Source: Candidatus Cloacimonadota bacterium
GTDB taxonomy: Bacteria; Cloacimonadota; Cloacimonadia; Cloacimonadales; JAMOQM01
Reading direction: 5' to 3'
DNA length: 43,756 nucleotides
NCBI GenBank assembly: GCA_027064005.1
Contig: JAMOQM010000083.1
Coordinates: 1-43,756, forward strand
Under the pieces are notes generated by a model. That model was not told the DNA's origin and made no database searches. It worked only from the letters and a program-made list of their open reading frames with translations. Position numbers and translations under genes: made by a program. Shown in pieces: positions 21,600 to 32,222 of the stretch; within the stretch, counting starts at the first letter, position 1; each line of letters opens with the position of its first letter.

Positions 21600-22577
21600 A
21601 TGGAAAAAAAAATTGATATTTTAGCAAAAGTACCTCATTCAAGAGGTTTGTACAAATTGTATGATAATGACAAATTGCTATTTGTGGGCATTTCTTCCGA
21701 TTTAAAAAACAGAATAAAACACTTCTTGGAAATCCCTAATCTTGAAAATCCTGATAAAAAATTAGCTTGGACAAAAAATATCAACAACTTTAAATATGAA
21801 ACATCTTCATCTCTCTGGCAACTTATTTTAAAGAAAAAAGAGATAATGAAAAATGAATTTCCGATAAATCAATTTCAATATAATTTGCATGATAATTATG
21901 TTTATTTAGCGATTAATTTTGAAAATCCGCCCTTTTTGAAAATTACGGATGACACTCAAAACGATTCTTTTTATATTGGACCTTTTCGGGATAGATTTTT
22001 TCTTATGGATATTTTAACTATTTTGGAACAACAATTTGGTGCCCCAATTTGTGAGAAAGAAATTGAAAATTGCCAAAAACATAATCAAGGTTTATGTAAA
22101 GGATTTTGTCTTTCCGACAAATCAGTTTTCAAAGAATTTGTTATTAATTTTATTTTATCAAAACCGGATAAAGAAATCAAGAAATTAGAAACTCAATTTG
22201 ATAAATTTGAAGAAGAGCTCGAATTTGAAAAATCAGATGAACTGAAAATTATTCTTAAAAAATTAAATAAGTTCTATTCTTTGCTGGAAGGACTTATTCT
22301 TTCCAAACAACTTCAATATACTTGGATTGAACAAAACAAAAAATATGAAGTTGAACGAGGAAAATTGCTGAAAATTTCTTCTAACCAAATTGTACTTGAT
22401 GAGTTCAACCCCAAAACAATCGAATTTAGACCAAACGAAATTATCGCTTATGAAAAATCTGATATTGATGAAGCTCTGATTATTTATGAGCATCTGAAAA
22501 AATCATTTCCAAACGAAATTAACAAACTATTTATCGAAGCAAAAAAATATATCTTAACCAAAATTATGGAGGATTGA
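21600..22577 (+). CDS. UvrC-like protein: degenerate GIY-YIG domain, Fe-S cysteine cluster and UVR motif, no RNase H domain
   Basis: 325-aa homologue of the N-terminal half of the excision nuclease UvrC. Residues 12-95 match the GIY-YIG fold (GLY at 16-18, FVG at 28-30, Arg38 in LKNRI). FYIGPF at 124-129 matches the UvrC GPY/F segment. Cysteines 151, 158, 166 and 170 include the C-x7-C-x3-C spacing of the UvrC [4Fe-4S] motif. Residues ~190-226 resemble the UVR (UvrB-binding) helix pair. The C-terminal RNase H-like nuclease and HhH domains are absent, as in Cho. The catalytic second Tyr is Phe28, and the metal-binding Glu expected near residue 72 is missing, so nuclease activity is doubtful. 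Its stop overlaps the purC start. Confidence 0.82.
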   Translation: MEKKIDILAKVPHSRGLYKLYDNDKLLFVGISSDLKNRIKHFLEIPNLENPDKKLAWTKNINNFKYETSSSLWQLILKKKEIMKNEFPINQFQYNLHDNYVYLAINFENPPFLKITDDTQNDSFYIGPFRDRFFLMDILTILEQQFGAPICEKEIENCQKHNQGLCKGFCLSDKSVFKEFVINFILSKPDKEIKKLETQFDKFEEELEFEKSDELKIILKKLNKFYSLLEGLILSKQLQYTWIEQNKKYEVERGKLLKISSNQIVLDEFNPKTIEFRPNEIIAYEKSDIDEALIIYEHLKKSFPNEINKLFIEAKKYILTKIMED

Positions 22578-23464
22578 TGAATAAATTACAAGATTTAGAG
22601 ATCGTAAAACAAACTTATTCCGGAAAAGTTAGAGACATTTATGACCTCGGAGACAAATTATTAATTGTAACTTCCGATCGAATATCTGCATTTGACTGCG
22701 TTTTCCCAAATACCATTCCTAATAAAGGAAAAATTTTAAATCAAATTTCCGTTTTCTTTTTCAAAGCTACAAAAGATATTATACCTAATCATTTTATTAC
22801 TGATAATGTAGATGAATATCCTGAGGAATTTAAAGAATTTGAAGATGAGTTAAAAGACAGAAGTATGCTTGTAAAAAAATCAAGAGTTATCCCTTATGAA
22901 TCAATTGTCCGCGGATATATTACCGGTTCTGCCTGGAAAGAATATCAAAGAAGTAAAACAGTTGGTGGAATAATTCAAGATTCTAATTTAGAAGAAAGTC
23001 AGAAATTTCCACAACCTTTATTTACGCCTTCAACAAAAGCTGAATCCGGTCATGATGAGAATATTTCTTTTGAAGAAATGAAAAAAAGAATGGATTCATA
23101 TTTAGCTGATGAAATTAAAAAAGTTTCCCTTGCATTATATAACTTTGCGCATGATTATTTATTTTCTAAAGATATCATTTTAGCCGATACTAAATTTGAA
23201 TTTGGTACTTATGAAGGAAAATTGATTCTTATTGATGAAGTTCTCACTCCTGATTCTTCAAGATTTTGGGATAAAAATGAATATCATCTCGGAACTACTT
23301 TAAAAAGTTATGATAAACAATATATCAGAGATTTTATTTCAAATTCAGATTGGGATAAAAATCCGCCCGCTCCGGAACTCCCTCAAGATATTATTGAAAA
23401 AACTTACAAAAAATACTATAATGCCTATAAAATAATTTGCGGAGAAAACACTAAATCATGGTAA
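22577..23464 (+). CDS. purC: Phosphoribosylaminoimidazole-succinocarboxamide synthase
   Basis: ATP-dependent ligase that joins aspartate to CAIR in purine synthesis. The 295-aa protein has the N-terminal GKVRDIYDLGDKLLIVTSDRISAFD signature split by family-typical residues, SRVIPYESIVRGYITGSAWKEY, and the C-terminal ILADTKFEFG and LIDEVLTPDSSRFW motifs. It belongs to the long form (about 300 aa) rather than the 237-aa E. coli type. A TTG codon 3 bp upstream is also in frame, but GGAGG at 22568-22572 and the TGATG overlap with the UvrC-like gene favour ATG 22577. The 3' end overlaps the response regulator gene by 7 bp. It is the only purine gene here. Confidence 0.96.
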   Translation: MNKLQDLEIVKQTYSGKVRDIYDLGDKLLIVTSDRISAFDCVFPNTIPNKGKILNQISVFFFKATKDIIPNHFITDNVDEYPEEFKEFEDELKDRSMLVKKSRVIPYESIVRGYITGSAWKEYQRSKTVGGIIQDSNLEESQKFPQPLFTPSTKAESGHDENISFEEMKKRMDSYLADEIKKVSLALYNFAHDYLFSKDIILADTKFEFGTYEGKLILIDEVLTPDSSRFWDKNEYHLGTTLKSYDKQYIRDFISNSDWDKNPPAPELPQDIIEKTYKKYYNAYKIICGENTKSW

Positions 23465-23850: not shown

Positions 23851-24771
23851 ATGCGATCATTAATCTTAATAATTTTGATTTTTATCCCATTACGAGGTTT
23901 TGCTTTTAATTATACAAAAGATAATATTCACATTGTTTCTGCAAATAAAGATTCTTTAATTGCCAAAAAAATTGTTACTTTCTTAAAAACAGATATTGAT
24001 AATTTCCAAAAAAAAATAGGGTCTTATCCGGATTTAAAAACAAATATTTATGTCGCATCCAATAATCAAGATTATCGAAATCTTAATAAAAAATTCTCCA
24101 AAAAAATCGTGGAATTCAGTCAGGCTTTCTATTCAAAATCCAACAACTGCATTTACATTCACAGCCCAAAATATTTCAAAACAATAAAGAATTTGCGGAT
24201 AACTCTTCTTCATGAATACATTCATTCTTTTGTTAATCACTTTTGGAAAAATGCTCCCCTTTGGTTTCATGAAGGAATGGCAGTGTCTTTTTCTAAAAAT
24301 TCGACAGGTATAAAAGAATTTTATCTTGTGTTGTCAATATTCAATGATAAAAAATTATCTCTTAAAGATATGGAAAAATCTTACCCGAAAACTAAAACGG
24401 AATGGATTATTTTTTATGAAAAAGCAGCCTTAACTATTGAATATCTTTCTCATCATTATAAACATCAATTTAATAATTTCATTGATCACGCACAGGCAAA
24501 CGGAAATTTTTATTTTGATTTTGATAACGCCTTTAACCTTACCCAAAAGCAATTTGAGAATGATTTCCATAACTATTTAAAACGATTTGTTATTGGAGCT
24601 TTTTTCATCGGCATTTCCAGTGTTTTGTGGGGAATAATACCACTTGGATTACTCATTGCTTGGATAAGAAAAAAAGTAATTAACAGAAAAATATATAAAA
24701 ATTGGGAAGCTCAGGAATTTATAACTTTAGAAAAATCCGACCTTTCCGAAAAAAATACAAGATTAGAATAA
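23851..24771 (+). CDS. Membrane-anchored gluzincin-type (peptidase MA-like) protein
   Basis: 306-aa exported protein. An N-terminal signal segment (1-19, ending GFAF) is followed by a metallopeptidase core with HEYIH at 121-125 and WFHEG at 138-142. E141 is the likely third zinc ligand, giving the HExxH-x(15)-E arrangement of gluzincins (peptidase MA-like superfamily). A membrane helix near the C-terminus (about 250-275) is followed by a short basic and acidic cytoplasmic tail, so the peptidase domain would face the periplasm. It starts 12 bp after the response regulator without a clear RBS. Substrate unknown. All catalytic residues appear intact. Confidence 0.78.
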   Translation: MRSLILIILIFIPLRGFAFNYTKDNIHIVSANKDSLIAKKIVTFLKTDIDNFQKKIGSYPDLKTNIYVASNNQDYRNLNKKFSKKIVEFSQAFYSKSNNCIYIHSPKYFKTIKNLRITLLHEYIHSFVNHFWKNAPLWFHEGMAVSFSKNSTGIKEFYLVLSIFNDKKLSLKDMEKSYPKTKTEWIIFYEKAALTIEYLSHHYKHQFNNFIDHAQANGNFYFDFDNAFNLTQKQFENDFHNYLKRFVIGAFFIGISSVLWGIIPLGLLIAWIRKKVINRKIYKNWEAQEFITLEKSDLSEKNTRLE

Positions 24772-24845: not shown

Positions 24846-27800
24846 ATGGTCAATTCAATAAAATGGATGATGGTAAAAAATGACCCGGAAAAATTAATAA
24901 CTCTCTATGAAAAGGACACTCAATCGAGAGCCCAAATAATTGATCGGCTTTTGGAATTGAACGAAAAAGAAAAATTAATCCACCTTGCATCAACTGATTC
25001 CAGATATAGAGGAAAAATTCTTGATATGTTAGAAGAAAATAAAATGCTCACAATTGAAGATACAATGTTCATCCTCACTTGGCTAAATCCTTCCCAAACT
25101 CAAAATGAATTTTTAAAGATGGTTACATCTAAATATCAGAATCAGGATTTAAGAAAAATTGTCAGCAATACAAATATTAATTCAATCGCACGCACAACCA
25201 TTAAGAAATTTTTAGAAAAAAACGATAAACTTTTCAACAATAAAATCAGCAAAAACTACCTTAAACTTCAGATGATTTTAGATGAATCAAAAGATAACTT
25301 TGAAGTTCAAGAAGTTTCGAATGATTTTAACTCCTCAAAATCAATTAAAGAAAATATCACCGATTATATGTTGAAAAGAAATGATTTGGATTTTAAAACC
25401 GAATATTTATTGATAAAAAATATCCTAATCGAAGGATTAAAAAATTCAAGAGAAGACTTTAATTCCGCTCTTTCAATTCTAAGTATTTCTAAATTAGATA
25501 ATAACTATAAAACCCAGATTTTAAAAGAAATTGATTCTCCTGAATTATACTTTTTTGACAACTTCCAGATTATTACTCAAAATACGGGAATCCCATTTGA
25601 TTCTTACAAAAAATTTCTATCGGAAAACAATATTAGTTTTTGGATAAAAAAATTATTCGCAGTTCATTATATTTCTGAATTTGTTTTTTTATACACAAAT
25701 TACAATCAATTCAAATGGTTAGAAAATTACGTCAGATATTATCCGATTAAAAATATCGGAATGATGAAAGAATATGTCGGAACTTATTACATGACTAATA
25801 ATTTCGGATTTAAATTGTTGGATATTATTATTGATCCGGTTTTAACAAAAAATTTAATTAAAAGTAGTGAAGAAATCCAATCCTATCTTTTGGCAAATAT
25901 TGATTCGGATATTTTACCGATTGAGAATTATTTAAAAGCACTTTTACTTATTGGCGGAGAAAGTAATTATAAATTTTTCGCTAAAATCCTGAATATGCAA
26001 GTTGTCAAAAATATCGAACAAACTAAAAAAGATATTGAAAATAATTATTTAGAATTAAAAAAGAAAATTGATGATATTAGCGAATTAAAAGAGCTTATTA
26101 AAAATGAAATTGAAGAAAAATCAAACCTTATCTCAGAAAAAAATTATAATAAAGTTGCAAGGCTTTATTTTGGAACAATCACTAATACAGAAATTATTTT
26201 ACCTCAAATTAAATCAAATTTGCGTGCCCATATTCCTAATTTAGAAAGATTCAGATTCCAAACCGATGAAAATGGGAAAATCCTTCTTTGCCGATATATC
26301 GGAGATTTGGATTTATACGACTACCAATACATATTAACAAATTTTATTGAAGAAAAAAGCTCACCAAAATTAGAAGTTAGTGCAGTGTTAGCTTTAATAA
26401 AATTAGGAAAATCGGAAGGTTGGGATAAAATTAATTCCATGTCAAAATCTACCAATATTAAAATTAAAGAATTGGTTGCCGATTCAATGAAAATTTTGCA
26501 TCAACAAATTGATCAAGAGGCTATTACAAAATTAGCTTTAGATAAAAATTATAGTGTTGTAAAAAACGCTTTGGAAACAATTATTACTCTTCCTAACAAA
26601 TTAGCTATCTCAATTTTTAAAGTATTAGTTGAAAAATCAACCTATATTTTCCGCCCGCTTATTGCAGAATATCTTGGAAAATTAGGAATCAAACCTTGTT
26701 TGCCACTATTGGTGGAATTAATTCAAGAAGACAATTTTAATGTAATTTTAGCTGTCCTAAAAGCTTTACGTGAAATAAAACATCCTCTCAGTTACCAGAT
26801 TGCCAAAAATATAAATACCAAAAAAAGATATATCCTCGATATAGAAAAAATGGTTACTTTGATTACTCTCGGACATACAGAATATTGGGACAGATTAGAA
26901 AAGTTATCCAATCTTAATGACAATTCCGTTAAACTTTTGGCAAAATTAAAAATGATAAAACTGGCAACCGTAAGCAAAATTGATATTTTACAAAATCTTG
27001 TAAACGATTCCAATCCTTTAATTACGACTCTTGCTTCGAGTAAAATTTATAATTATTTCCCTGAAGAAGGAAAAAATCTATTAGATAAATTTTTAGTCCA
27101 CGGCAATAATCTTCATCATTATTATATTACTTTTTGGATGAAAAATCTTGATTTTGCAAAAGTTAAAAACAAATTAGCAAAATTATTCGGCGAACAAAGT
27201 TATAAGGTGAAAACCATTGTAGCCATAGTTTTAGCGGAAAAAGGCATTCAAAATTATCTAAACACAGTAGAAAAAAATATTATCAATCTTGATGATATTG
27301 AACATCTGCAAATATTAGAAACAATCAACGATTATCCTTCTAAAAAAGCAATTCCTCTTCTCGAAAAAATAGCTCTCTTCCAAAACCATAAATCTTTAAA
27401 ATTCATCGTAGAAATCTGTAAAAAATTAAATTGGGAAGATATTAAAGAAATGTATATGAGATTATGGGAAAAAAGTGAACCGCTTTCAAGAATGATTTTA
27501 GCAAGATTATTTTCTTATTTGGATGATGAGAATATCGTTAGCTTCATAAAAAAAGAAATAAAAATCCAACCGGAAACTGTTACTTCAGAATTAGCATTTG
27601 CTTTAATTGTTAACGGAGATGAGTCAGGTTGGGATTATTTCAATGAAATAATCAATAACAAAAAATTAGTTTTTAAAATTCAGGCAATAGAAAATATCGC
27701 CAAATTCAAAACAGTTGATGCCCTTAATAAATTAAAAAAGTACATTTTAACACCTAACCTTGATATTCAAATAGCAGTAATTAAAGCTGTTGGGGAAATG

Positions 27801-28754
27801 CATTTGAAAGAAGGCGTGAAATTCTTGAAAAAATATATAGATCATGATAGCCCTAAAATAAGAATAAGCGTCGCAAATGCTCTCGGTGAAATTCCTTATC
27901 AAGAATCTTTAGATTTATTAAAATATATCTCCAACGACAAAGATGAATATGTTAAAATGAGTATTGAAATGGCAATGGAAAAAATATTAAACCCTCGTCA
28001 AAAAATTGATACTGATATTAAAGATTTATTTGATTCCGTGATGTATGAAACGGAATGGAAAATAGATAAAAACCTATTTGAGCAATATTTTAATCTTTTC
28101 TCTCGTGATTATAAAAACTGTAAAATTTATGACTTGGATTATTTCGCTGATAAAATAATTTTAACCGAATCGGAAATCAATGAACGTAAAGAAGAAATTA
28201 ATAAAAAACTAACCGGTATTCTTACCGGAAGTACCGATATTGATGAAATTGTAAAAGCTAAAGAAAAAGCAAATAGCGACATTTCTAAATTGGCAAGTAT
28301 TAAAGAATTAATTAATTCCATATTAAATATTAAAGATAAAGACCTTAATCCGCAAACGTTAAAATTAATTGACGAATTAATGGATACAGGCAATAAAAAT
28401 ATCCTACAAGCAATAATTCTTGTGGCAACAAAATCCAGCAATAAAAAATGGCTATCGGTAATCGAGAAATATGTCGATGAATATTATTTGGAAAAAGATG
28501 CAGATTTAATTATCAGTTCTCTGATAAATAAAATCAGCTCTAGGATTCTTAATATTTTAATCAAAATCGGAGACAACGAACGAGCAAGATTCTATATTCT
28601 CTACACTTATAATTATCTGATTATTCATAATGACTTGATCTCTTTTTCAGATTTAAGAAACTTAAAAAAGATGATTAAAACGTCTGAATACTCAACAAAT
28701 TACAAAAATATGATTTCTTATATTATTAGAAATTTAATGGAGAATTTACTTTAA
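24846..28754 (+). CDS. Giant HEAT-repeat protein
   Basis: 1302-aa soluble protein with no signal peptide or membrane segment. Alpha-helical repeats dominate. The clearest HEAT/PBS-lyase-type units lie at about 958-1055 (IQIAVIKAVGEMHLKEGVKFLKKYI, IRISVANALGEIPYQESLDLL), with more diverged ones at about 505-650. A variant unit with the signature G-x-x-E-x-WD (GKSEGWDKI, GHTEYWDRL, GDESGWDYF) recurs three times. Residues ~388-430 form a coiled coil. The N-terminal 380 residues match nothing I recognise. GAGGTG precedes the ATG. The stop is immediately followed by the mazG ATG, so the gene leads a co-transcribed run. HEAT arrays are protein-binding scaffolds; the partner is unknown. Confidence 0.8.
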   Translation: MVNSIKWMMVKNDPEKLITLYEKDTQSRAQIIDRLLELNEKEKLIHLASTDSRYRGKILDMLEENKMLTIEDTMFILTWLNPSQTQNEFLKMVTSKYQNQDLRKIVSNTNINSIARTTIKKFLEKNDKLFNNKISKNYLKLQMILDESKDNFEVQEVSNDFNSSKSIKENITDYMLKRNDLDFKTEYLLIKNILIEGLKNSREDFNSALSILSISKLDNNYKTQILKEIDSPELYFFDNFQIITQNTGIPFDSYKKFLSENNISFWIKKLFAVHYISEFVFLYTNYNQFKWLENYVRYYPIKNIGMMKEYVGTYYMTNNFGFKLLDIIIDPVLTKNLIKSSEEIQSYLLANIDSDILPIENYLKALLLIGGESNYKFFAKILNMQVVKNIEQTKKDIENNYLELKKKIDDISELKELIKNEIEEKSNLISEKNYNKVARLYFGTITNTEIILPQIKSNLRAHIPNLERFRFQTDENGKILLCRYIGDLDLYDYQYILTNFIEEKSSPKLEVSAVLALIKLGKSEGWDKINSMSKSTNIKIKELVADSMKILHQQIDQEAITKLALDKNYSVVKNALETIITLPNKLAISIFKVLVEKSTYIFRPLIAEYLGKLGIKPCLPLLVELIQEDNFNVILAVLKALREIKHPLSYQIAKNINTKKRYILDIEKMVTLITLGHTEYWDRLEKLSNLNDNSVKLLAKLKMIKLATVSKIDILQNLVNDSNPLITTLASSKIYNYFPEEGKNLLDKFLVHGNNLHHYYITFWMKNLDFAKVKNKLAKLFGEQSYKVKTIVAIVLAEKGIQNYLNTVEKNIINLDDIEHLQILETINDYPSKKAIPLLEKIALFQNHKSLKFIVEICKKLNWEDIKEMYMRLWEKSEPLSRMILARLFSYLDDENIVSFIKKEIKIQPETVTSELAFALIVNGDESGWDYFNEIINNKKLVFKIQAIENIAKFKTVDALNKLKKYILTPNLDIQIAVIKAVGEMHLKEGVKFLKKYIDHDSPKIRISVANALGEIPYQESLDLLKYISNDKDEYVKMSIEMAMEKILNPRQKIDTDIKDLFDSVMYETEWKIDKNLFEQYFNLFSRDYKNCKIYDLDYFADKIILTESEINERKEEINKKLTGILTGSTDIDEIVKAKEKANSDISKLASIKELINSILNIKDKDLNPQTLKLIDELMDTGNKNILQAIILVATKSSNKKWLSVIEKYVDEYYLEKDADLIISSLINKISSRILNILIKIGDNERARFYILYTYNYLIIHNDLISFSDLRNLKKMIKTSEYSTNYKNMISYIIRNLMENLL

Positions 28755-29534
28755 ATGAAAGAACTTGATCGACTTGTAAACATCATCAAAGAATTAAGAA
28801 ATCCTAAAACAGGTTGCCCGTGGGATATCAAACAAACGTCAAAATCTTTAATCCCGAATTTTATCGAAGAATTATACGAAACCGTAGAAGCCATCGAATC
28901 AGGTAACAATACTGATTTAAAAGAAGAATTAGGCGATTTGTTGATGCATATTATTATGCAAATTGAAATTGCTAATGAAAAATCCGAAATGACTCTCGAA
29001 GAAATTTTGGATGGAATTTCGGATAAATTAGTGTTGAGACATCCTCATATTTTCGGTGATAAACAAAATCTATCGGTTGAAGAAATTAAAGTTAATTGGG
29101 AAAAAATAAAAAATCTGAAAGAAAAAAAATCGCGAGATTCTGTTTTAGAAGGAATCCCGATGAAAATGCCGGCAATAATTGTAGCTCAAAGAATTCAAGA
29201 AAAAGCTGCTTCTGTTGGATTTGATTGGAAAACTTTGGAACCGGTTTTTGATAAAATTGAGGAAGAAATCCAAGAATGTAAAAAAGCCATTAAGAATAAA
29301 GATCATGATAATATTGAAGAAGAAATCGGCGATATCTTATTTTCTGTAATTAATTTAAGCAGAAAGCTTGATATTGATGCCGAAACAGCATTACGAAGAA
29401 CAATCAATAAATTTAATTCAAGATTCCAATTTGTTGAAAAAAATCTAAAAAATGAAGGAAAAAATATTTATGAAACCAGTTTGGAAGAAATGGACAAACT
29501 TTGGGAAATGGCAAAAAAAGAAAAATCTGAATAG
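28755..29534 (+). CDS. mazG: Nucleoside triphosphate pyrophosphohydrolase MazG
   Basis: All-alpha NTP pyrophosphatase that clears non-canonical or excess NTPs. The 259-aa sequence has two MazG repeats: the first with GCPWDIKQT, EELYETVEAI and KEELGDLLMHIIM (Glu/Asp metal ligands), and a second with EEIQECKKAI and EEEIGDILFSVINLSR. The terminal SLEEMDKLWEMAK is a family hallmark. The ATG follows the HEAT-gene stop with no gap and no separate RBS, implying translational coupling. Its last 65-83 bases also encode the start of the histidine kinase in another frame. Confidence 0.95.
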   Translation: MKELDRLVNIIKELRNPKTGCPWDIKQTSKSLIPNFIEELYETVEAIESGNNTDLKEELGDLLMHIIMQIEIANEKSEMTLEEILDGISDKLVLRHPHIFGDKQNLSVEEIKVNWEKIKNLKEKKSRDSVLEGIPMKMPAIIVAQRIQEKAASVGFDWKTLEPVFDKIEEEIQECKKAIKNKDHDNIEEEIGDILFSVINLSRKLDIDAETALRRTINKFNSRFQFVEKNLKNEGKNIYETSLEEMDKLWEMAKKEKSE

Positions 29535-30744
29535 CGATTTACTCTTAAAATTATATTTCATTCTAGGAAGCTTATTAATCTTCTTAATGATGATTTTATA
29601 TTCTAATAACATCATCTCGGTTGCGAAGAATGAAAGTAAAATGGTACCTAACCTAATTGCCAATTTCATTCAACATTCAACTGAAGATAATTTTGATGAA
29701 ATTTTGGTACAATATATTTTAGAAGAAGTAATCCAAAAAGTTGACTATCCTTTGATTGTTACCGATGCCGACAACCGACCTCTTTATTGGAAAAATCTTG
29801 ATATCCCTGAAAATGTAGAACTATCTGCTTTGACTAAAGAAGAAAAAGCAAAACTTTATTATGAACTAAAAAAGATGCGAAAAAAACATTGGGTAATACC
29901 TCTGCGATACACAAAAAGAAATTCTAAAATACTGGGCTATACCTATTTCAGCGAATCAGCATCTATTCGTTTACTCAAATTTTTACCTTATTTGGTTGGG
30001 ATTAGCTTTTTGCTTTTTATTCTTTTAGGAATTTACGGTTTGATTTTAAAAAAACGTCAGGAAAAAAATCAATTATGGATTGGATTGGCTAAAGAAACCG
30101 CTCACCAATTCGGAACACCCATAACTTCACTGATCGGTTGGATTGATATCCTCAAATTAAAAATTAATTCCGCTGAAATAGACGAAAAAGAAAGCTTTGA
30201 TATGATGTTAAATCAAATGGCGATAGATGTTGAACAGTTGAAAAAAGTTGCCTCAAGATTTGGCAAAGTAGGTTCAACTATAAAATTAGTTGATACGGAT
30301 ATTGTCAAAGTGCTTGATGAAACCGTCGAATATTATAAATTGAGAACGCCAACACTTACAAACAAAATTAATCTCTACTTCATTACAAAAATGAAAGAAA
30401 AAATAATAAAAATAGATGAAGAACTTTTCAAATGGGCAATTGAGAATCTAATTAAAAATGCTATCGATGCGATGCAATTAAAAGGTGGAAATATAATTGT
30501 AACACTCTTGCAAGATGAGGAAAATATCGACATACTTGTCAAAGATGAAGGGAAAGGAATGCCCAAAAAAATGTTCAATAGCGTATTTAATCCGGGAATT
30601 ACAACTAAAAAAAGAGGCTGGGGTTTAGGATTAAGTTTGTCTAAAAGAATTATTGAAGAATATCATAATGGAAAGATAAAAGTTTTGGAAAGTACTATCG
30701 GAGAAGGAACAACATTTGAAATAGAAATTCCGGAGAATTTATGA
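29470..30744 (+). CDS. Membrane sensor histidine kinase
   Basis: Two-pass sensor kinase of 424 aa. Membrane helices at about 25-47 and 168-192 bracket a periplasmic sensor domain of ~120 residues. No HAMP domain is recognisable. The cytoplasmic part has the H-box LAKETAHQFGTPITSLIGW (phospho-acceptor H212), N-box ENLIKNAIDA, G1 VKDEGKGM, G2 GWGLGLSLSKRI and a final GEGTTFEIEIP. The AHQxGTPxxSLxGW box is the form common in Bacteroidota and relatives. ATG 29452 is also possible; ATG 29470, 10 bp after AAGGA, is preferred. Either way the gene starts inside mazG. It ends in ATGA shared with nnrDE. The cognate regulator is not adjacent. Confidence 0.9.
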   Translation: MKPVWKKWTNFGKWQKKKNLNSDLLLKLYFILGSLLIFLMMILYSNNIISVAKNESKMVPNLIANFIQHSTEDNFDEILVQYILEEVIQKVDYPLIVTDADNRPLYWKNLDIPENVELSALTKEEKAKLYYELKKMRKKHWVIPLRYTKRNSKILGYTYFSESASIRLLKFLPYLVGISFLLFILLGIYGLILKKRQEKNQLWIGLAKETAHQFGTPITSLIGWIDILKLKINSAEIDEKESFDMMLNQMAIDVEQLKKVASRFGKVGSTIKLVDTDIVKVLDETVEYYKLRTPTLTNKINLYFITKMKEKIIKIDEELFKWAIENLIKNAIDAMQLKGGNIIVTLLQDEENIDILVKDEGKGMPKKMFNSVFNPGITTKKRGWGLGLSLSKRIIEEYHNGKIKVLESTIGEGTTFEIEIPENL

Positions 30745-32222
30745 TTATTTTATCCAAAGAAGAAATGCGAAAAGCAGACTCCCTCACAATAAATAAAATT
30801 GGAATTCCCGGTTCAATATTGATGGAAAATGCCGGGAAATCTTGTGCTAATCTAATTTTAGAAAAATATTCTCTTGATAATAAAATCCTCGTTTTTTGCG
30901 GAAATGGCAATAATGGCGGTGATGGTTTTGTAATTTCACGTTGGTTATTCCAAAAAGGATATTCTGTAAAAATCATTGTTATTGGTAACCCGGATTTGAT
31001 GAGTCAGGAAACTAAAGACAATTACATTTTGACACAAAATTTAGAAATCCCAACAATTAATTTCAAGAATATAAAAGACATCTCAAATCTGATTGATAAA
31101 TTTAATATTGCCATTGATGCAATTTTCGGAATAGGATTTCATGGAAAAGTAAAAGAACCGTATTTATCTATTTTCAAAGCAATTAATGAATCTTCACTAA
31201 CAAAAATTTCTATCGATATTGCCAGTGGAATCAATTCAAATTCCGGTAAAATTGATACTGCCATAAAAGCAAATCAAACCTTCACCATCGCTTATCCGAA
31301 ATACGGTCAGTTAATTGGAAAAGGACGAGAATACAGTGGAGAAATTTCTGTTATCGATATTGGAATTCCTAAAAAAATAATTGCTGAGATTCAACCTAAA
31401 GGCAGATTAATCTCCGAGATTTCCCTTCCAAAAAGAAATCAATTTTCGCACAAAGGAGTGTTTGGAAAAATTGGACTGATTGCCGGATCTCCCGGATATT
31501 CCGGAGCTGGAATTATGGCTTGTAAAAGTGCTTTAAAATCCGGAGCAGGTTTGGTTACCTTGATTCATCCCAAGGAAATGAGTATGATTTTTGAAACTCA
31601 ACTTCTCGAAGCAATGACTTTTGGATATTCTGAAAAAAATTATCTTTCAGAAATTAGAAACAAAATCTCCGGAATGGATGCAATTCTTATCGGACCGGGA
31701 TTGGGTACTTCGCAAACCGCTCTAAATATTTTGAAAATGCTTTTAGATGATTGGAAAAAGCCGCTGGTTATTGATGCGGACGGCATTAATCTTCTTTCTC
31801 AAAACAAAAATTTGTTAGATTTATTAGCTGTCAAAGATGTTGTTCTCACACCCCACATTGGAGAATTTTCCCGTTTAATGGGAAAAAAAATTTCAGAAAT
31901 TAACGACAATCCTATTCAAAATATAAAAGAATTTTATGATAAATATCGTATTCCGGTTTTATTAAAATCTTTCACTTCTATCTTTTATGACGAAGATTCT
32001 CTAATTTTCAATACTTCAGGTAATGATTCTCTTTCAACCGGTGGAAGCGGAGACGTTCTCGCAGGGATAATCACTTCACTTTTGGGACAGAAAATGTCGC
32101 TAAAAAATGCTACAATCAACGCTTCATTAATTTTGGGAAAAACAGCCGAATTTGTCTCAAAAAAAATGAATTCAACTCGAAAGGTTTTGCCATCTGATAT
32201 AATTGAAAATTTACTAATTTAA
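30741..32222 (+). CDS. nnrDE: Bifunctional NAD(P)H-hydrate epimerase / ADP-dependent dehydratase
   Basis: Repairs damaged NADH/NADPH hydrates. The N-terminal epimerase (about 1-210) shows SILMENAGKS and FCGNGNNGGDGFVISRWL. The C-terminal ribokinase-like dehydratase (about 225-490) shows GSPGYSGAGIMACKSALKSGAG, IGPGLGTS, VIDADGINLL, LTPHIGEFSRL and the GGSGDVLAGI nucleotide-binding loop. At 493 aa it is the standard bacterial fusion (YjeF). It overlaps the kinase gene by 4 bp (ATGA). Confidence 0.96.
   Translation: MIILSKEEMRKADSLTINKIGIPGSILMENAGKSCANLILEKYSLDNKILVFCGNGNNGGDGFVISRWLFQKGYSVKIIVIGNPDLMSQETKDNYILTQNLEIPTINFKNIKDISNLIDKFNIAIDAIFGIGFHGKVKEPYLSIFKAINESSLTKISIDIASGINSNSGKIDTAIKANQTFTIAYPKYGQLIGKGREYSGEISVIDIGIPKKIIAEIQPKGRLISEISLPKRNQFSHKGVFGKIGLIAGSPGYSGAGIMACKSALKSGAGLVTLIHPKEMSMIFETQLLEAMTFGYSEKNYLSEIRNKISGMDAILIGPGLGTSQTALNILKMLLDDWKKPLVIDADGINLLSQNKNLLDLLAVKDVVLTPHIGEFSRLMGKKISEINDNPIQNIKEFYDKYRIPVLLKSFTSIFYDEDSLIFNTSGNDSLSTGGSGDVLAGIITSLLGQKMSLKNATINASLILGKTAEFVSKKMNSTRKVLPSDIIENLLI

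Follow-up and report, generated by a model that had tools for sequence, protein, structure and literature searches.

The UvrC-like gene and its product

The window, which is the whole stretch of DNA that was analysed (43,756 nucleotides) and a whole contig of a 2.4-Mb Candidatus Cloacimonadota genome, carries a gene for a UvrC/Cho-like protein, followed on the same strand by purC, by the gene of a response-regulator receiver and by a peptidase-like gene (Table 1). The end of purC overlaps the start of the receiver gene, and genes of a wider cluster are found further downstream. A 1302-residue HEAT-repeat protein, encoded between the peptidase-like gene and mazG (24846-28754), was not seen at this position among the named relatives.

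Table 1. Coordinates of the UvrC-like gene, of the features of its product and of the downstream genes (positions of the window)
Feature	Position	Strand	Details
UvrC/Cho-like protein gene, predicted non-catalytic	21600..22577	+	325 aa, ATG start, stop included
GIY-YIG fold (predicted), residues 8-98	21621..21893	+	alignment with 30 UvrCs; Foldseek match to UvrC GIY-YIG domains
Codon starts of the catalytic positions	Y18 21651, F28 21681, I31 21690, R38 21711, K79 21834, Q91 21870	+	
GPF motif (127-129) and four-cysteine Fe-S type domain	21894..22115	+	invariant or near-invariant in the family
Fe-S type cysteines	C151 22050-22052, C158 22071-22073, C166 22095-22097, C170 22107-22109	+	alignment
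UVR-like helical hairpin, residues 190-237	22167..22310	+	AlphaFold helices; consensus comparison
C-terminal domain, residues 238-325	22311..22574	+	family invariants G254, E280, E291
purC (SAICAR synthetase)	22577..23464	+	E 3.4e-76; start overlaps the stop of the UvrC-like gene (TGATG)
Single-domain response-regulator receiver, 126 aa	23458..23838	+	Pfam Response_reg E 5.3e-23
Peptidase-MA-like protein	23851..24771	+	adjacent cluster member in many relatives too
MazG nucleotide pyrophosphohydrolase, wider cluster	28755..29534	+	synteny
HATPase_c histidine kinase, wider cluster	29452..30744	+	synteny; overlaps mazG, start codon uncertain
NAD(P)HX repair enzyme (YjeF_N + Carb_kinase), wider cluster	30741..32222	+	synteny

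It is confirmed that the gene encodes a homologue of the N-terminal half of UvrC. The NCBIfam uvrC model TIGR00194 aligns to residues 8-227 (E 4.4e-17, 62 bits), and the best NCBIfam match is PRK07883, which covers residues 6-225 (E 2.3e-19); the Pfam GIY-YIG model remains below its cut-off (E 0.09), and a phmmer comparison of the protein with the PDB sequences gives a chance match only. Past residue 228 there is no Pfam or NCBIfam match and the protein ends at residue 325, such that the RNase H/EndoV and HhH domains are absent, as the sequence-only reading of this DNA had proposed for the RNase H-like second nuclease. The GIY-YIG α/β fold, also proposed in that reading, is predicted by the AlphaFold model, which was calculated from 24 aligned family sequences (mean pLDDT 87.7, pTM 0.86). 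In agreement with this prediction, the best PDB matches of the model, obtained with Foldseek, are the GIY-YIG domains of the UvrCs of B. caldotenax and T. maritima (1yd6 and 1ycz/1yd2-1yd5), with TM scores of 0.74-0.80 on the target and sequence identities of 14-23%.

In the AlphaFold model, helices 190-205 and 209-237 form a hairpin, which includes the invariant F209. The UVR helices of the sequence-only reading are thus recovered as a structural element, but not as a canonical motif: Pfam UVR has no match in this protein, and comparison with the consensus shows that the hairpin is divergent and that the R-D of the UVR motif is gone. As both the R-D and the recognition by Pfam are lost, UvrB binding may be lost as well, and binding of UvrB via this divergent UVR-like hairpin is uncertain.

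Active site and iron-sulfur cysteines

The residue correspondence with the catalytic positions of UvrC was obtained from the sequence alignment together with agreeing secondary-structure elements, and the catalytic counts given below are mapped on the genome's own UvrC; a sequence of the N-terminal region of T. maritima UvrC has only been used for orienting an early alignment. In T. maritima UvrC numbering, the six catalytic positions are Y19, Y29, K32, R39, E76 and N88. When compared with the genome's own UvrC, Y18 of the window protein is at the position of the tyrosine of GIY, F28 at that of the tyrosine of YIG, I31 at that of the lysine, R38 at that of the arginine, K79 at that of the glutamate and Q91 at that of the asparagine. 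Of the YYKREN set only two of the six residues (Y18 and R38) are therefore kept, the window protein having YFIRKQ, and the catalytic set of GIY-YIG nucleases is incomplete. In the predicted structure, F28 is located within strand 25-32, R38 within helix 35-44 and K79 within helix 72-85. The loss of the nuclease site had been proposed from F28 and from the absence of a glutamate near residue 72; both substitutions are confirmed, but the glutamate position is occupied by K79, and the replacements of the lysine by isoleucine and of the asparagine by glutamine are to be added.

The complete YYKREN set is found in none of the 51 aligned family members, and at most four of the six residues are kept (zero residues in 2 members, one in 16, two in 18, three in 11 and four in 4). 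The set is complete in 28 of the 30 UvrCs from the same genomes, the other two being gapped in this region, and it is also intact in both Cho-like proteins of the Cloacimonadales and in E. coli Cho. The glutamate position of the family has E, Y, Q, F, K, L or H, with no fixed substitute. At position 28, tyrosine is present in 25 members, followed by F (15), W (5), H (3), M (2) and L (1); the expectation that F28 would be fixed in the clade is consequently not borne out. Because F28 is not fixed, the case for inactivity rests on the combined loss, above all of the glutamate and the asparagine. In ANKLE1, activity is undetectable for the Y453F, E551A and N565D variants, and the Y486F variant is 3500-fold slower; a glutamate mutant of UvrC is also inactive (PMC10287932). 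From their order, Y453 and Y486 of ANKLE1 would be the tyrosines of GIY and YIG. Given these mutant data, inactivity of the window protein is argued more strongly by the loss of the glutamate and the asparagine. The loss of the nuclease site, the lack of a second nuclease and the retention of the Fe-S ligands are well supported; they apply clade-wide and are no quirk of a single genome.

The four cysteines, which the sequence-only reading had described as intact, form the complete UvrC pattern, C151-x6-C158-x7-C166-x3-C170, and align with the cysteines of UvrC and Cho. All four are kept in 49 of the 51 members. In two members, L047 (genome G011) and L048 (genome G010), these cysteines are lost too, such that the cluster domain is dispensable in some genera. 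UvrC has a [4Fe-4S] cluster (cited in PMC8837605), and the window protein, having the same cysteines, presumably also binds one. The most conserved positions of the family are not the catalytic ones: invariant or near-invariant are Y102, G127, P128, P149, the cysteines, F209, G254, E280 and E291, of which the C-terminal, invariant E291 is family-specific.

Purifying selection is shown for close pairs of the family, in which dN is well below dS (for example 0.08/0.37 and 0.10/0.87); the cysteine region is the slowest-evolving region in most of these pairs. Because the window copy has no such close relative, its identity to the nearest one sampled being about 36%, the selection on this copy itself is what we infer from the family.

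Distribution, phylogeny and gene neighbourhood

The family is carried by about 92 of the 107 Cloacimonadales genomes, and this recurrence across the order shows that the pattern is not due to chance. The named relatives are nearly all from Candidatus Cloacimonadota, one record being labelled Armatimonadetes. The 23 named loci were found by a profile search of contigs with a closer family alignment (A2); a contig scan queried with the single window protein gave no matches. In the four order genomes without the family gene that were checked (G050, G080, G071 and G014), the receiver gene and purC are absent too at the thresholds used, which suggests that the locus is unsequenced there. In the sister lineage of the class, the family profile matches full UvrC only. 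A small open reading frame upstream of purC in this lineage was considered as a UvrC-like remnant and rejected, as it encodes OsmC.

In the tree, the family is one clade with support of 100/99; the branches are long, and the root and the exact sister group are not fixed by this tree. Two Cloacimonadales genomes have a third UvrC-type gene, encoding Cho-like proteins of 310-323 residues (L107, G007:C15, and L108, G042:C77) with the full catalytic set and the four cysteines, which coexist with UvrC and the pseudonuclease. In hhalign, the family aligns with these intact-site proteins over 292 columns, including the C-terminal part, with a probability of 99.7. As the family is a single clade and is homologous to intact-site Cho-like proteins, it is best described as a pseudonuclease branch of the UvrC/Cho group, catalytically dead as judged from its sequences.

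The constant partnership with the receiver gene is a new observation of this study. In 47 of the 49 loci of the order genomes, the UvrC-like gene is followed by the receiver gene, with a gap of at most a few tens of bases or with purC in between; L007 (identical with locus L086) has a larger insertion before the receiver gene, and L017 is an exception. The receiver gene also follows in all 23 named loci, a set that partly overlaps with the 49 loci. The arrangement of the window, with purC between the two genes, is shared by 29 of 49 relatives. The phosphoacceptor region of the receiver is conserved (VDD, TDIAMPDM and KPF). Some members of the order have, further downstream, the peptidase-like gene and the genes of MazG, the HATPase kinase and the NAD(P)HX repair enzyme; the linkage with the kinase and MazG is not order-wide.

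The sister lineage has an orthologous receiver (E about 1e-36 to 1e-40); in 7 of the 11 loci examined (L153-L157, L159 and L163), its gene and full-length uvrC are in convergent orientation, with purC being present in most of them. This lineage is without the pseudonuclease, and the receiver gene thus has a UvrC-family gene close by in either lineage. Between the receiver gene and uvrC of these seven loci there is an open reading frame of 109-112 aa. In 13 genomes of one family of the order (f8), the UvrC-like gene and mfd are transcribed divergently, no more than 3 kb apart; this adjacency is confined to that family and is absent in the genome of the window. At one locus (L083, G049:C15:27429-30134, of a metagenome-assembled genome), the mfd gene beside the pseudonuclease gene is, as assembled, broken by two in-frame TAA codons.

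The genome of the window has one complete UvrC (574 bits), as the sequence-only reading had asked to be checked, and also UvrB (1024 bits), UvrA (1418 bits) and Mfd (1005 bits), and a full UvrC over the cut-off is present in 58 of 59 genomes. The window protein is thus an extra protein and not a replacement, since the genome has its own UvrA, UvrB, UvrC and Mfd. A lexA gene over the cut-off was not found in this genome; two adjacent open reading frames (G000:C59:388-1249) resemble LexA in its S24 peptidase portion alone, with scores under this cut-off.

Possible function and comparison with known systems

The family probably regulates or supports DNA repair instead of cutting DNA. The preferred reading, for which the probability is estimated to be about 0.5, is that it is a non-cutting Fe-S paralogue of UvrC/Cho, kept by selection beside UvrABC-Mfd and regulating or scaffolding repair together with the receiver. 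The retained non-catalytic parts would bind DNA and/or UvrB, no 3' incision would be made, and the protein would regulate nucleotide excision repair, or serve there as an adaptor or competitor; the Fe-S cluster, the phosphorylated receiver protein or both might set its state. It is from ancestry and gene neighbourhood that we infer the assignment to nucleotide excision repair and the partnership with the receiver. The earlier suggestion that the protein may be a regulator or damage sensor agrees with these findings and gains from the conserved pairing with the receiver gene. Against this reading, neighbouring genes may stay linked without any functional tie, and purC, which is purely metabolic, is part of the same linkage. 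The diverged UVR motif and the two members without the cysteines also count against it, and the adjacency to mfd concerns one family only, and not the genome of the window.

It is a modest possibility that the protein has left repair and that the UvrC-like scaffold is now an Fe-S sensor, of redox state or of nucleic acids, which serves the receiver and kinase signalling genes of the cluster. The constancy of the receiver partner, the kinase, MazG and NAD(P)HX repair enzyme genes that follow in part of the order, the diverged UVR motif and the family-specific E291 fit with such a sensor, but the orthologous receiver next to full-length uvrC and the 13 genomes with divergent mfd point to repair, and the kinase/MazG linkage is found in part of the order only. 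The collinearity with the N-terminal half of UvrC and with the Cho-like proteins, catalysis being removed, is what would be expected of a structural, dominant-negative brake, which would sit on UvrB or on lesion DNA and thereby prevent incision by UvrC, with no signalling role for the cluster or the receiver; such a brake alone would not explain the conserved linkage with the receiver gene, and it is considered to be unlikely. That the family is still a Cho-type 3'-incision nuclease with altered residues is quite unlikely: the fold is kept, the window protein has the GIY tyrosine and the arginine, and some members retain the glutamate and the asparagine, but no member has all six residues, the glutamate has no fixed substitute, and its loss or that of the asparagine abolishes the activity of related enzymes (PMC10287932). 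The high divergence, with the low identity of the window protein to its nearest relative, might indicate a decaying, functionless paralogue; this is very improbable when considering the order-wide retention with open frames, the dN/dS ratios well below 1 in close pairs and the invariant cysteines and C-terminal residues.

Returning to the non-cutting repair paralogue, the retention of the cluster ligands together with the order-wide loss of the nuclease suggests that the cluster domain does something besides supporting cutting. What the Fe-S cluster does in UvrC is, to our knowledge, unsettled, and the family is a natural construct for testing the role of this domain. A more specific proposal, which is doubtful at present, is that the protein is a natural separation-of-function UvrC, which in the Cloacimonadales would, together with the receiver, connect nucleotide excision repair or transcription-coupled repair with two-component signalling of redox or stress. 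Should the link with the receiver prove functional, two-component signals would have a path to excision repair; we know of no two-component control of bacterial nucleotide excision repair.

Dunin-Horkawicz 2006 (PMC1564403) describes a Cho-like subfamily of UvrC-like GIY-YIG proteins with the C4-UvrBb architecture and with neither ExoIII nor EndoV; an inactive branch is not described in the passages concerned. Within the open-access literature, and with subscription papers outside the scope, no description of an inactive UvrC paralogue was found. When compared with UvrC (TIGR00194), the window protein shares the GIY-YIG fold, the GPF motif, the four cysteines and a UVR-like hairpin, but it is without the RNase H/HhH half, the catalytic set and the UVR R-D, and its score is far below the cut-off of 285.45 bits. 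The fusions of a DEDD exonuclease with GIY-YIG (PRK07883, Cho-like plus Exo) are matched by all 26 of 26 family members, whereas the window protein starts at the GIY-YIG domain, has no exonuclease domain and obtains 69 of 495 bits, which is below the cut-off. The Cho model NF007833 has no match in the window protein and weak matches in 8 of 26 relatives. E. coli Cho is likewise a standalone GIY-YIG plus C4 protein that occurs beside UvrC, but it keeps YYKREN and is without the UVR-like segment in this alignment, unlike the window family. The Cho-like proteins L107 and L108 have, over nearly their full length, the same order of GIY-YIG, C4, UVR-like segment and short C-terminal domain, with the same four cysteines; these proteins keep the six catalytic residues, whereas the window family, a clade of its own, has lost them.
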